Below are positions 21,947 through 24,915 of a stretch of 34,930 nt of DNA, piece after piece. The stretch is from Nitrospinaceae bacterium. Its GTDB lineage: Bacteria; Nitrospinota; Nitrospinia; Nitrospinales; VA-1. Under the pieces are notes generated by a model. That model had not been told where the DNA came from. It made no database searches and saw only the letters and a program-made list of their open reading frames with translations. Location: positions 1-34,930 of the forward strand of contig JAJDBI010000112.1 of assembly GCA_029261435.1 (NCBI GenBank), given 5' to 3'. Within the stretch, counting starts at the first letter, position 1. Each line of letters begins with the position of its first letter. The position numbers and the translations under genes are program-made.

Positions 21947-22267
21947 CTAAGAAGGCAGACTTAAAATTATCTCATCGTTTTCTATCTTTACCGGATAAGT
22001 GTCAACGTAACACCCGTCATCACACCTGTCGAGAGTAATACATTCCCCACTGGTGATATCAAATTGCCAATCGTGGGCGGGGCAGGTCACCAGTTTGCCA
22101 TTTAGTTTGCCGGTTCCCAAAGAAGCTCCCACGTGTGGGCATTCATCGTCAAAAGCAAAAACCTCACCATCAATGCTAAACATGGCTATCTGCTGCTCAC
22201 CGACGGTAAATGTTTTGCCATGGCCATCGTGTACATGTTGCCATTTTCCTAAATTATGTTCGGTCAT
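21947..22267 (-). CDS. Rieske [2Fe-2S] ferredoxin (NirD/oxygenase-ferredoxin type)
   Basis: The 106-residue protein is a stand-alone Rieske domain. Both cluster motifs are present: CPHVGASL (C-x-H) and CPAHDWQFD (C-x-x-H), with 17 residues between. The size and the D.G.CYVDTYPVKIE..EI end fit soluble Rieske ferredoxins of the NirD or dioxygenase-ferredoxin class, which pass single electrons to an oxygenase or reductase. No such partner is next to it. An excellent AAGGAG Shine-Dalgarno precedes the ATG. It is transcribed away from the structured leader and the globin-sensor gene cluster, which it may serve (speculative). Confidence 0.92.
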   Translation of the reverse strand: MTEHNLGKWQHVHDGHGKTFTVGEQQIAMFSIDGEVFAFDDECPHVGASLGTGKLNGKLVTCPAHDWQFDITSGECITLDRCDDGCYVDTYPVKIENDEIILSLPS

Positions 22268-22343: not shown

Positions 22344-22603
22344 TGGGGTGTCAGATTGCCTACCCTGTATTTTATTCACAACGGTAATCTGCTCCAGAAA
22401 ACGAGCAATACCCCACTTATTCTTGCTAAACATCTAACTATTTGTGAAGGAAGATTAACCAAAATTAATCTTAATTACCTAGCTATATGAACTAGTCAGA
22501 GTATTCTGATAGTAACCTTTCCTCTATTACTAATCGAGCTTGGGGAATAAAACACAACTCGGGATTTCTAAATATTGCCACTCCCCCTTTGGAGTGGCTT
22601 TTT
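22344..22603 (+). ncRNA. Candidate structured RNA or leader ending in a terminator
   Basis: This gene-free stretch holds a nested structure: outer TGGGGT (22344-22349) with ACCCCA (22410-22415), inner CAGATTGCC (22352-22360) with GGTAATCTG (22383-22391). Two further hairpins follow: AAGATTAA/TTAATCTT (22451-22472) and a bulged stem around TCAGA/TCTGA (22491-22513). It ends in a strong terminator. It could be a small RNA or an attenuating leader for the small gene that starts 40 bases later. No known RNA family is recognised. Confidence 0.4.
22577..22603 (+). terminator. Strong Rho-independent terminator
   Basis: GCCACTCC and GGAGTGGC form a perfect 8-bp GC-rich stem around CCCTTT, directly followed by TTTTTATTT. 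It lies upstream of any good start codon, so the long track ORF from 22540 through it is not translated as drawn. Confidence 0.85.
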
Positions 22604-22644
22604 ATTTACCTTCAATGCTTGAAGTTAAAAAGGCAGGTGGCTCT

Positions 22645-22821
22645 ATGCATGAAGTCAAAGTTTTCGATAGCCTCGGAAAATTAAAAAAGATCATATCAGA
22701 GCGAACTTTAATTACACGCTCTAACAAGCAACTGGAAACTCCGTCAATGTTCAGGAAAAATAAAAGAGGGCGACCATGGTCAAAGTCTACTAAAGCTCAA
22801 CAAAAAGTTGAAACACCATAG
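22645..22821 (+). CDS. Small basic protein, unknown
   Basis: The track ORF starts inside the upstream terminator region (22540). The ATG at 22645 has a GGTGG about 5 bases upstream and gives 58 residues beginning MHEVKVFDSLGKLKKIIS. The first 20 residues resemble a beta-strand plus K-rich turn seen in many short orphan proteins (V.VFD..G.LKK.IS). The rest is very basic (FRKNKRGRPWSKSTKAQQK), so nucleic-acid binding is possible but unproven. The K-R-G-R-P string is reminiscent of an AT-hook. It is the first ORF of the plus-strand run leading to the globin-sensor gene. Confidence 0.5.
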   Translation: MHEVKVFDSLGKLKKIISERTLITRSNKQLETPSMFRKNKRGRPWSKSTKAQQKVETP

Positions 22822-22879
22822 CAATTATCCAGAAACCCTGGTTTCACCTTAAAACTCTCTAAACAAGAATCGAGGCCAA

Positions 22880-23212
22880 ATGATCACAGATCGTTATACA
22901 AAAATCATATTAACTGTTCTCACTATTGCATTAATCCTCAATGTTTTTGACCGATGGATCGCTCCCTCTCATGCGGTGGCAGCAGAAAATACGTCCCTTG
23001 ATATAAACAAAAACCATAACAACTGCTCATCAGTAAACAAAAATTCGATAAAAATTATGGATGGAGTAAATAACGTAGAAAGATTGCTGGGATACATCGA
23101 ATCTTCGGTGAATGACATTCAATTAACCATTTTAGGCATTGATCGAAAGTTGAATAAGTCGTCTTCCAGTAGCTCATGGAACAAGGGCGAATTGATTGTC
23201 ACAAGAGAATAA
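22880..23212 (+). CDS. Small membrane-anchored or exported protein
   Basis: The 110-residue protein starts MITDRYTKIILTVLTIALILNVF, an uncleaved anchor or signal peptide (a possible cleavage after SHAVAAE). The rest is polar, with a predicted amphipathic helix (GVNNVERLLGYIESSVNDIQLTILGIDRKL) and a Ser-rich stretch. A GAGG Shine-Dalgarno sits 3-4 bases before the ATG. The DRYTK..LTV N-terminus occurs in several short uncharacterised exported proteins. Its stop is directly followed by the next ORF's ATG, indicating one operon. No function is recognised. Confidence 0.6.
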   Translation: MITDRYTKIILTVLTIALILNVFDRWIAPSHAVAAENTSLDINKNHNNCSSVNKNSIKIMDGVNNVERLLGYIESSVNDIQLTILGIDRKLNKSSSSSSWNKGELIVTRE

Positions 23213-23213
23213 G

Positions 23214-23384
23214 ATGGAAGACCTTGCGTTTTTTACCCTGGTCGCTTCAATGATTGCTAATTTTATCGTTTTAGGTATTTCACTCAATCGACCTGATTCT
23301 TTTTCCCCTGTCATTCTTTCTTCCATTTCCATTTCTCTGCAAGCATACGCATTGCGGTTGATCGCTATGAACGCTGTTAGCTGA
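23214..23384 (+). CDS. Small two-helix membrane protein, unknown
   Basis: The track begins at a TTG at 23196, but the ATG at 23214 immediately follows the upstream stop codon (TAAG-ATG), with AAGAGA as a weak ribosome site, and is preferred. The product has 56 residues. Two hydrophobic segments (LAFFTLVASMIANFIVLGISL and SPVILSSISISLQAYALRLIAM) suggest a helical hairpin in the membrane. No family recognised. Position between an anchored small protein and the globin/PsiE-like membrane protein hints that it is part of the same membrane assembly (inference). Confidence 0.55.
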   Translation: MEDLAFFTLVASMIANFIVLGISLNRPDSFSPVILSSISISLQAYALRLIAMNAVS

Positions 23385-23467
23385 ATTACTCAAATTAAAC
23401 AAATAGGTAGTTTTAATCATTTCTGTTCACAAAAAATTGATTTGAAGAAAACCACACTGACCATCAA

Positions 23468-24397
23468 ATGAAAAACATAATGTCGGAATCATTGGACCTT
23501 TTGAAGGTCCAATACTCCTTTACTAAGGCAGATGAAGGTTTACTTCTACAAATGAAACCTCACTTGGAATCTCATGTCGTTGAATTTTTGGATGGCTTTT
23601 ATGAGTCGATTTGGAAACTCGGAAATGTCTCTGAATTCTTTGAAAATGATCTGGCATTCAATCAGCATCGCGACATTATTCGTCAATGGTACCTTGACCT
23701 ATTCGCTGGGGCTTATGGAGCTGATTATTTTTTAAGTCTTGCAAAAATCAGAGAGGCACACGCAAAGTTGGCAATCCCTACCCACCATATGATGGCATTA
23801 TTTTACTTTACTCCAACATTTACCATAGACACTATCCAGAAGCATAATTATGACGATAATTACTTGTCCAAAAGGATTAAGGCAATTGAAAAAATCCTGG
23901 CAATTAACTTAGACATTTTAACGGGTTCCGTTCGAGAAATTGAAACAAGCCAATCTTCATCCATTTCCAGGCTTGAAGTTAAGTTACTTAGATATCTACA
24001 TACTGTTGGGGCCTATTTCAATTATCTGCTTATGGGAGCCCTTGTGATGGTGGCAACTTTCGCGATTGGGTTGTTCGGGTATGATATTTATCTCTTGTTT
24101 TCAGGGAACGCTTCTATTGAAATTGGCATTTTAACCACTTTAGGAAGTCTACTGATACTTTGGGCAGCGATTGAGTTAATCAATGAGGAAATTAAACATT
24201 TGAGCGGTGGAAGCTCTGCCTTGGTTGCATTTATAACACTTGCTATTGCGGCATTGATTCGGAAAATATTAATTGTTTCTCTCTCTCCAGATAAGACAAA
24301 CGAAATCCTTATGTATGGGCTATTAGTACTGCTTCTAAGTATTTCTTATTGGACAATTTCACTTACATTGAAACCTCAAAAGCTTCAGGTGAATTGA
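23468..24397 (+). CDS. Globin-sensor domain fused to PsiE-like membrane domain
   Basis: The 309-residue protein has an N-terminal protoglobin-type domain (about 10-160). It shows QHRDIIRQWYLDLFAGAYGADYF and then IREAHAKLAIP, where H98 matches the proximal haem His of globin-coupled sensors. A helical linker (about 160-180) leads to a C-terminal membrane domain of four helices (about 188-300), containing LLILWAAIELINEEI and ALIRKILIVSL. The latter is typical of the phosphate-starvation-inducible PsiE family. A haem-bound O2, NO or CO signal could therefore be passed to the membrane (inference). No methyl-accepting or GGDEF output is present. The start lacks a good Shine-Dalgarno; M5 is an alternative. 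Confidence 0.78.
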   Translation: MKNIMSESLDLLKVQYSFTKADEGLLLQMKPHLESHVVEFLDGFYESIWKLGNVSEFFENDLAFNQHRDIIRQWYLDLFAGAYGADYFLSLAKIREAHAKLAIPTHHMMALFYFTPTFTIDTIQKHNYDDNYLSKRIKAIEKILAINLDILTGSVREIETSQSSSISRLEVKLLRYLHTVGAYFNYLLMGALVMVATFAIGLFGYDIYLLFSGNASIEIGILTTLGSLLILWAAIELINEEIKHLSGGSSALVAFITLAIAALIRKILIVSLSPDKTNEILMYGLLVLLLSISYWTISLTLKPQKLQVN

Positions 24398-24444
24398 TCC
24401 ATAATCATTATTAAACCAAACTTTCATCAGGAAAGAAGGCTGAA

Positions 24445-24915
24445 ATGAACCCAAAAGACGAAATCCAGAAACTCATCCAAGCCGAAATGAAAAAGTGGGA
24501 GGACTACGAAGATAAGAATGATAAATTACGGATTCATCAAGCAGATAACTTCAAATTCATTTGTGCTCTCCTGAATGACCTTGTCGCATCGATCGAACCA
24601 GAATATACCAAGACAAATATTCTGGATGGCCATGCAACATTAAAGGTTGGCAATGATATAGACCGTTCGAGCTTTATCAGTTGGACCATCCAACCGAACT
24701 TTATAACACTGGAGAGTAAGGAAGAGTACTGGAACACCAATCTTTGGCAAGACAAAGTAAATATAGAGGCGGAACCCGGTTTTAAAGTACAGGAGAAGCG
24801 AGGTGATGACGTAGAAACGAACTCTGAGTTTGGGACAGAAAATGATTTAATTAATTATCTCGCTCAAGAAATCGCCAAGAGAGTCGCTTTTTACCGTTAC
24901 AGAAAAAACGTTTAG
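24445..24915 (+). CDS. Soluble protein of unknown function
   Basis: The 156-residue protein is hydrophilic and acidic, with no signal peptide or membrane helix. N-terminal helices (IQKLIQAEMKKWEDYEDKNDKLR, FICALLNDLVASI) precede a predicted beta-rich middle (HATLKVGN, FISWTIQPNFITLES) and an amphipathic C-terminal helix (LINYLAQEIAKRVAFYRYRK). An AAGAAGG Shine-Dalgarno is 6-7 bases before the ATG. It lies 47 bases after the globin/PsiE gene on the same strand and is probably co-transcribed. I do not recognise a family. Confidence 0.6.
   Translation: MNPKDEIQKLIQAEMKKWEDYEDKNDKLRIHQADNFKFICALLNDLVASIEPEYTKTNILDGHATLKVGNDIDRSSFISWTIQPNFITLESKEEYWNTNLWQDKVNIEAEPGFKVQEKRGDDVETNSEFGTENDLINYLAQEIAKRVAFYRYRKNV

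Follow-up and report, generated by a model that had tools for sequence, protein, structure and literature searches.

Gene content of the locus

The analysed stretch of DNA (hereafter the window; 34,930 nt from the draft genome of a Nitrospinaceae bacterium) carries on its forward strand a leader RNA with a terminator, three small genes that we call p58, p110 and p56, a gene for a globin–PsiE fusion protein and a further gene, p156. The ORF list and the sequence confirm this arrangement, which had been described in an earlier note on the same DNA. p58 (22645-22821, + strand) encodes a small protein of 58 aa that is indeed basic (pI 10.8) and belongs to a family found in multiple copies in the phylum. 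p110 (22880-23212, +) was said to be membrane-anchored, and hydropathy places a single transmembrane-like window at residues 9-27; with the alignment added, the protein shows a hydrophobic helix at its N-terminus, a single invariant Cys and a conserved helical C-terminal stretch. A single base, position 23213 right after the p110 stop, separates it from p56 (23214-23384, +), which encodes a small, very well conserved membrane protein (NFIVLGISLNRPDSF..SLSAISISLQGYALR). Of the two helices proposed for p56, the first corresponds to a strong transmembrane-like window (residues 4-22), while the second is less hydrophobic. The fusion gene (23468-24397, +; 309 aa) joins a protoglobin/sensor globin domain at residues 8-151 to a four-transmembrane PsiE domain at residues 185-298. 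p156 (24445-24915, +) encodes an acidic, soluble protein. Finally, a Rieske protein gene (21947-22267, − strand; Pfam Rieske E = 3.8e-18) is divergent from the others, as had also been claimed.

None of p58, p110, p56 and p156 has a family match above any cut-off in the Pfam and NCBIfam scans, and for p58 PHROGs and the PDB gave no match either. Profile searches of the PDB returned nothing significant, with best E values of 1.3 (p58) and 0.23 (p156). All four are conserved in other genomes and are therefore real genes, and they give access to as many families of small proteins that the searched libraries lack. A single-sequence structure model of p156 was unusable (mean pLDDT 55.7) and was left out of the fold search.

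A membrane globin-coupled sensor

Both parts of the proposed fusion of a protoglobin-like to a four-helix PsiE-like domain score above the curated Pfam cut-offs (Protoglobin, PF11563, E = 5.9e-19, 69 bits against a cut-off of 25; PsiE, PF06146, E = 4e-18, 66.2 bits against 23.9), and four hydrophobic, transmembrane-like windows fall within residues 186-298. The closest solved relative of the globin domain in the PDB search is GsGCS of Geobacter sulfurreducens (2w31; sequence E = 2.5e-21), and AfGcHK and HemAT match as well. The AlphaFold model (mean pLDDT 65.9) is of fair to good quality over the globin but of poor quality over PsiE. Its globin fold matches 2w31, 5ohf and 1or6, with a TM-score of 0.89 by target length for 2w31; the PsiE part is left uncovered among the best matches of this PDB fold search. 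By sequence and fold, the protein is a membrane globin-coupled sensor, in which PsiE (residues 185-298) is the C-terminal domain joined to the globin and the putative output domain.

The haem pocket of this widespread sensor of the phylum is unusual, with a His at E7 and none at E11. The proximal His noticed previously is His98 (HisF8; codon 23759-23761, +), which is His in all 31 rows of our alignment. His67 at E7 (codon 23666-23668, +) is His in 30 of the 31, GsGCS being the exception. GsGCS shares HisF8 with the window protein, as well as a conserved His at window position 106. Its sixth haem ligand, however, is His66 at E11 (PMC4476040), whereas E11 in the window protein is Ile71, and every row but GsGCS has Ile, Val, Leu or Met there; the window protein hence lacks the bis-His E11/F8 pair of the GsGCS type. 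Because HisF8 and HisE7 are kept and the E11 His of GsGCS is missing, the globin domain is probably a gas sensor. The window protein and its counterpart in genome G017 also share an altered G-helix motif (HHMMALF versus HYVNAAF), a difference that may reshape the pocket or affect the dimer interface.

Fusion to a sensor globin sets the window PsiE apart from the PsiE family, to which it conforms in score and in its four transmembrane-like windows. A literature search for PsiE together with protoglobin or globin-coupled sensor found no paper, and PsiE together with globin found a single, unrelated one (on sickle-cell).

A modular small-protein operon of the phylum

The earlier note took the locus for a haem-sensing operon and suggested examining co-occurrence of its proteins across genomes. 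Across the 77 genomes searched from the window's phylum, these small proteins are again found together, but nearly everywhere without globin or PsiE: p58 is present in 63 genomes, often in several copies, p110 in 21, p56 in 30 (with a mean column identity of 86% in the alignment) and p156 in 7, each time within this gene cluster, and a globin lies in the cluster in two genomes only. Accordingly, the description of the locus was right and the reading of the single sensor gene reasonable, but the reading at the level of the operon was largely wrong. p58, p110, p56 and p156 are the components of a modular operon of the phylum, undescribed so far. Its further features are a conserved leader RNA and, often, an additional gene for ribosomal protein bS21.

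Besides the leader RNA and the second bS21, the usual partners of these small proteins are a DUF1611 protein and an ornithine-racemase-like enzyme. The modules come in different orders: c6–DUF1611–racemase–p156–p58–p110–p56 (L074), the same without p156 (L106 and L079), p58–p110–p56–DUF1611–racemase (L077) and p58–p110–DUF1611–racemase–p56 (L110 and L111). In 19 of its 21 places p110 has p58 or the leader upstream; of the two others, one is at a contig end and one has p58 downstream of the racemase gene. Among 23 near-complete copies of the racemase-like gene, 21 or 22 (the copy in G049 is unmapped) share a stretch with p58, p110, p56 or p156, and G028 is the clear exception in which it stands apart from them.

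The enzyme pair matches Pfam DUF1611 and Ala_racemase_N, and resembles the ornithine racemase Orr (NF040742, 402 bits) and the N-acetyltransferase DgcN (NF041892, 154 bits). Both scores are below the curated cut-off of 480 bits each, so an Orr-like or DgcN-like substrate is not established. No paper was found in a literature search for DUF1611 together with racemase. In many related operons (L035:10922-11446, L074:1-639 and others) DUF1611 is preceded by c6, a family of about 171 aa for which Pfam and NCBIfam gave no match.

A conserved leader RNA with an intrinsic terminator

Some 150 nt upstream of p58 are conserved in about 19 loci, and consist of an AT-rich stretch, promoter-like hexamers and a leader of roughly 100 nt that ends in GCCACTCC-loop-GGAGTGGC-T8. 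In the window, aligned leaders of other genomes point to a putative promoter with a −35 element TAGCTA (22480-22485, +) and a −10 element TATTCT (22502-22507, +), where relatives have TTGCTA or TTGTAA and TATCCT. The leader itself, about 105 nt with a CU-rich 5′ hairpin and an intrinsic terminator at its end, is matched by our covariance model R1 at 22502-22606 (+; E = 3.8e-14), with the start of p58 38 nt further on. The hairpin of the terminator, GCCACTCC-CCCTTT-GGAGTGGC followed by a T-run, lies at 22577-22598 (+). Such a pattern is found once in the window against 1.9 expected, which is not above chance; we take the terminator as real because it is conserved across genomes.

The covariance model finds 37 leaders in 26 of the 77 genomes. 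p58 follows in 30 cases, at a spacing of 34-46 nt in 28 of them. The remaining seven fall into several groups: in three, bS21 is 134-136 nt downstream with no listed p58 between, one directly precedes bS21, two weak ones precede cspA and one precedes p110 with p58 undetectable. In three further genomes the leader is intact and p58 is interrupted early. Four genomes (G006, G026, G033 and G036) keep the leader ahead of p110 with p58 broken or missing.

Consensus folding of the leader recovers the terminator only, with one compensatory pair. The 5′ hairpin appears in individual folds, and its stability slightly exceeds that of shuffled sequences (mean z −1.0 over 28 leaders; +0.1 for the window). 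A search of Rfam 15 at permissive thresholds gave nothing near a gathering score; a leader conserved in 26 genomes yet outside Rfam is a further handle. The best chance matches in Rfam were rejected since they align mainly on the terminator. A preQ1-like pseudoknot considered by eye was also discarded, as the groups do not agree in its pairing, which is poorest in the window itself.

An accessory bS21 behind the leader and p58

In 24 places a bS21 gene lies 29-74 nt downstream of p58, and one further place has it at 222 nt; many of these p58–bS21 loci also have a divergent cspA. At least two bS21 genes are present in 24 genomes. The extra copy follows p58 in 19 of these and the leader in four more (G033, G036, G050 and G067), that is, in 23 of 24. 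An accessory bS21 almost always tied to the leader and p58 offers another handle, and this association is the more novel part of our results, one that the earlier note could not have seen.

Systems with more than one bS21 include Francisella, where the alternative bS21-2 alters which proteins are made (PMC9578407). In Flavobacterium, control also acts at the rpsU gene, which is autoregulated via ribosomes that lack bS21 (PMC9976891). The extra bS21 of the phylum is found behind a conserved leader and p58, and neither element is mentioned in the abstracts of the two papers. A leader controlling an accessory bS21 would be of interest because an alternative bS21 changes protein output. By analogy, p58 and the accessory bS21 may adjust ribosomes. 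The window copy has no bS21 gene, in contrast to both comparison systems.

The window operon as a probable derived copy

The window operon is a second copy in its genome, and probably a derived one. It retains the leader, p58, p110 and p56 and has globin–PsiE and p156 in addition; bS21, DUF1611 and the racemase gave no match in the window, so that the Orr/DgcN-like pair of related operons is absent. The enzymes are found elsewhere in the genome, at G000:C61, in the order leader–p58–p110–DUF1611–racemase. The only bS21 found lies on contig C243, away from p58. The assembly is a draft of 324 contigs and 81% completeness, and some genes that seem to be missing from the rest of the genome may simply fall in gaps.

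A PsiE gene is part of the operon in four of the 77 genomes: with the globin in the window and in G017, where p58 is its only neighbour among the small proteins, and without it in G046 and G048. In the tree, the PsiE domains of these four form one clade (support 100/98). This suggests that PsiE entered the operon once and that the globin was gained or lost once. Nearly 30 other globin–PsiE copies stand elsewhere, most of them without small-protein neighbours. The haem-globin membrane sensor is a rare, later passenger in the small-protein operon.

Some of the globin–PsiE genes elsewhere adjoin genes for truncated haemoglobin or NnrS, neighbours that hint at NO or O2. One such NnrS gene, in G008 (L037), scores E = 4e-98. 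The window genome has a second globin–PsiE gene at G000:C85 (L050:5692-7115, − strand), next to a gene that resembles truncated haemoglobins (E = 3e-5 for Pfam Bac_globin, marginally over the cut-off). Relatives of the fusion also occur in MAGs labelled Gammaproteobacteria and Chromatiales (L003 and L004; 58% and 54% identity) and Aquificaceae (L005; 32%). L003 is nested in the diversity of the window's phylum in the PsiE tree, a placement that suggests transfer or mis-binning. No match to globin–PsiE was found among plasmids.

Proposed mechanism and alternatives

We propose that the window holds a second, derived copy of the modular operon, most likely controlled by attenuation at the leader and giving rise to a globin–PsiE sensor, and as one explanation of the data we consider this reasonably probable. 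The common unit consists of a leader with a built-in terminator, p58, bS21 in many genomes, p110 and p56, and commonly the DUF1611/racemase-like pair; the window version has neither bS21 nor the enzymes, and has globin–PsiE and p156. Transcription would begin just ahead of the leader and in most cases end at its terminator, unless some condition that affects the leader's 5′ portion, perhaps the translation state or cold, permits read-through into p58 and the membrane genes. O2 or NO would bind to the globin domain, with HisF8 as the binding site and HisE7 as the distal residue, and binding would alter the four helices of PsiE in the inner membrane, with p56 as a possible membrane partner. Since PsiE is not a constant companion of p56 and p156, nor they of it, a PsiE–p56–p156 complex can be suggested only weakly. 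What the sequences show is the gene content and its conservation, the linkage of leader and p58, the residues of the haem pocket, the globin fold and the common clade of the operon PsiEs; attenuation, the ligand, the direction in which the signal passes and any contact between partners are inferred.

Attenuation has its own difficulty, as the 5′ domain of the leader is barely beyond shuffles and the consensus fold amounts to the terminator and one compensatory pair. Alternatively, the leader could be an independent small regulatory RNA that has a promoter and a terminator to itself, so that transcription of p58 and the genes after it would depend on read-through or on other promoters. The strong conserved terminator and the promoter-like hexamers agree with this reading, base pairing between the CU-rich motif and sequences of the Shine-Dalgarno type is conceivable, and the persistence of the leader in the four genomes where p58 is broken or lost fits it as well. 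A free RNA, however, has no need of the fixed distance to p58 seen in 28 of 30 pairs, nor does this reading sit well with the leader directly before bS21 and the two weak ones before cspA; we regard it as unlikely.

A dedicated haem-based gas-sensing operon, in which globin–PsiE signals via p58, p110, p56 and p156 as its own partners, would agree with the single strand and short gaps of the window genes, with p58 preceding globin–PsiE in G017 and with p156 and p56 following PsiE in G046 and G048. Nonetheless the small proteins are found in 63, 21, 30 and 7 genomes, respectively, against two with the globin in the cluster, and most globin–PsiE genes have none of them nearby, which makes such an operon very unlikely. 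We give an equally low chance to the window copy being a decaying leftover of a bS21 operon, its genes drifting and its globin–PsiE insertion functionally unlinked to the neighbours. The loss of bS21 and the enzymes, the decay of p58 in several relatives and the differing gene orders would be expected of a leftover, but none of the five window ORFs is disrupted and their conservation is good (identity to relatives of 68% for p56, 57-58% for p156 and 72% for globin–PsiE), and the window and G017, assigned to different genera by the search tool, have the same altered G-helix motif.

Going beyond the modular copy with attenuation and globin–PsiE sensing that we prefer, the leader and p58 might form an undescribed RNA-controlled system for ribosome composition, acting through the accessory bS21, and in the window lineage the leader would now switch on a membrane globin sensor. 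This is a decidedly long shot; if true, translation state and haem or gas sensing would be under one control.

p58 and p56 outside the operon

Viral contigs gave no match to p56 or globin–PsiE and one weak match to p58: contig IMGVR_UViG_3300023223_001813 (L161:2974-3147) encodes a p58-like protein of 57 aa (49% over 37 aa), slightly upstream of an apparent primase/helicase gene. The link to bS21 may be younger than the EVKVYD..G.LKK.IS motif. p56 is also found alone (L119-L125), in some genomes between alcohol-dehydrogenase-like and flavin-reductase-like genes.
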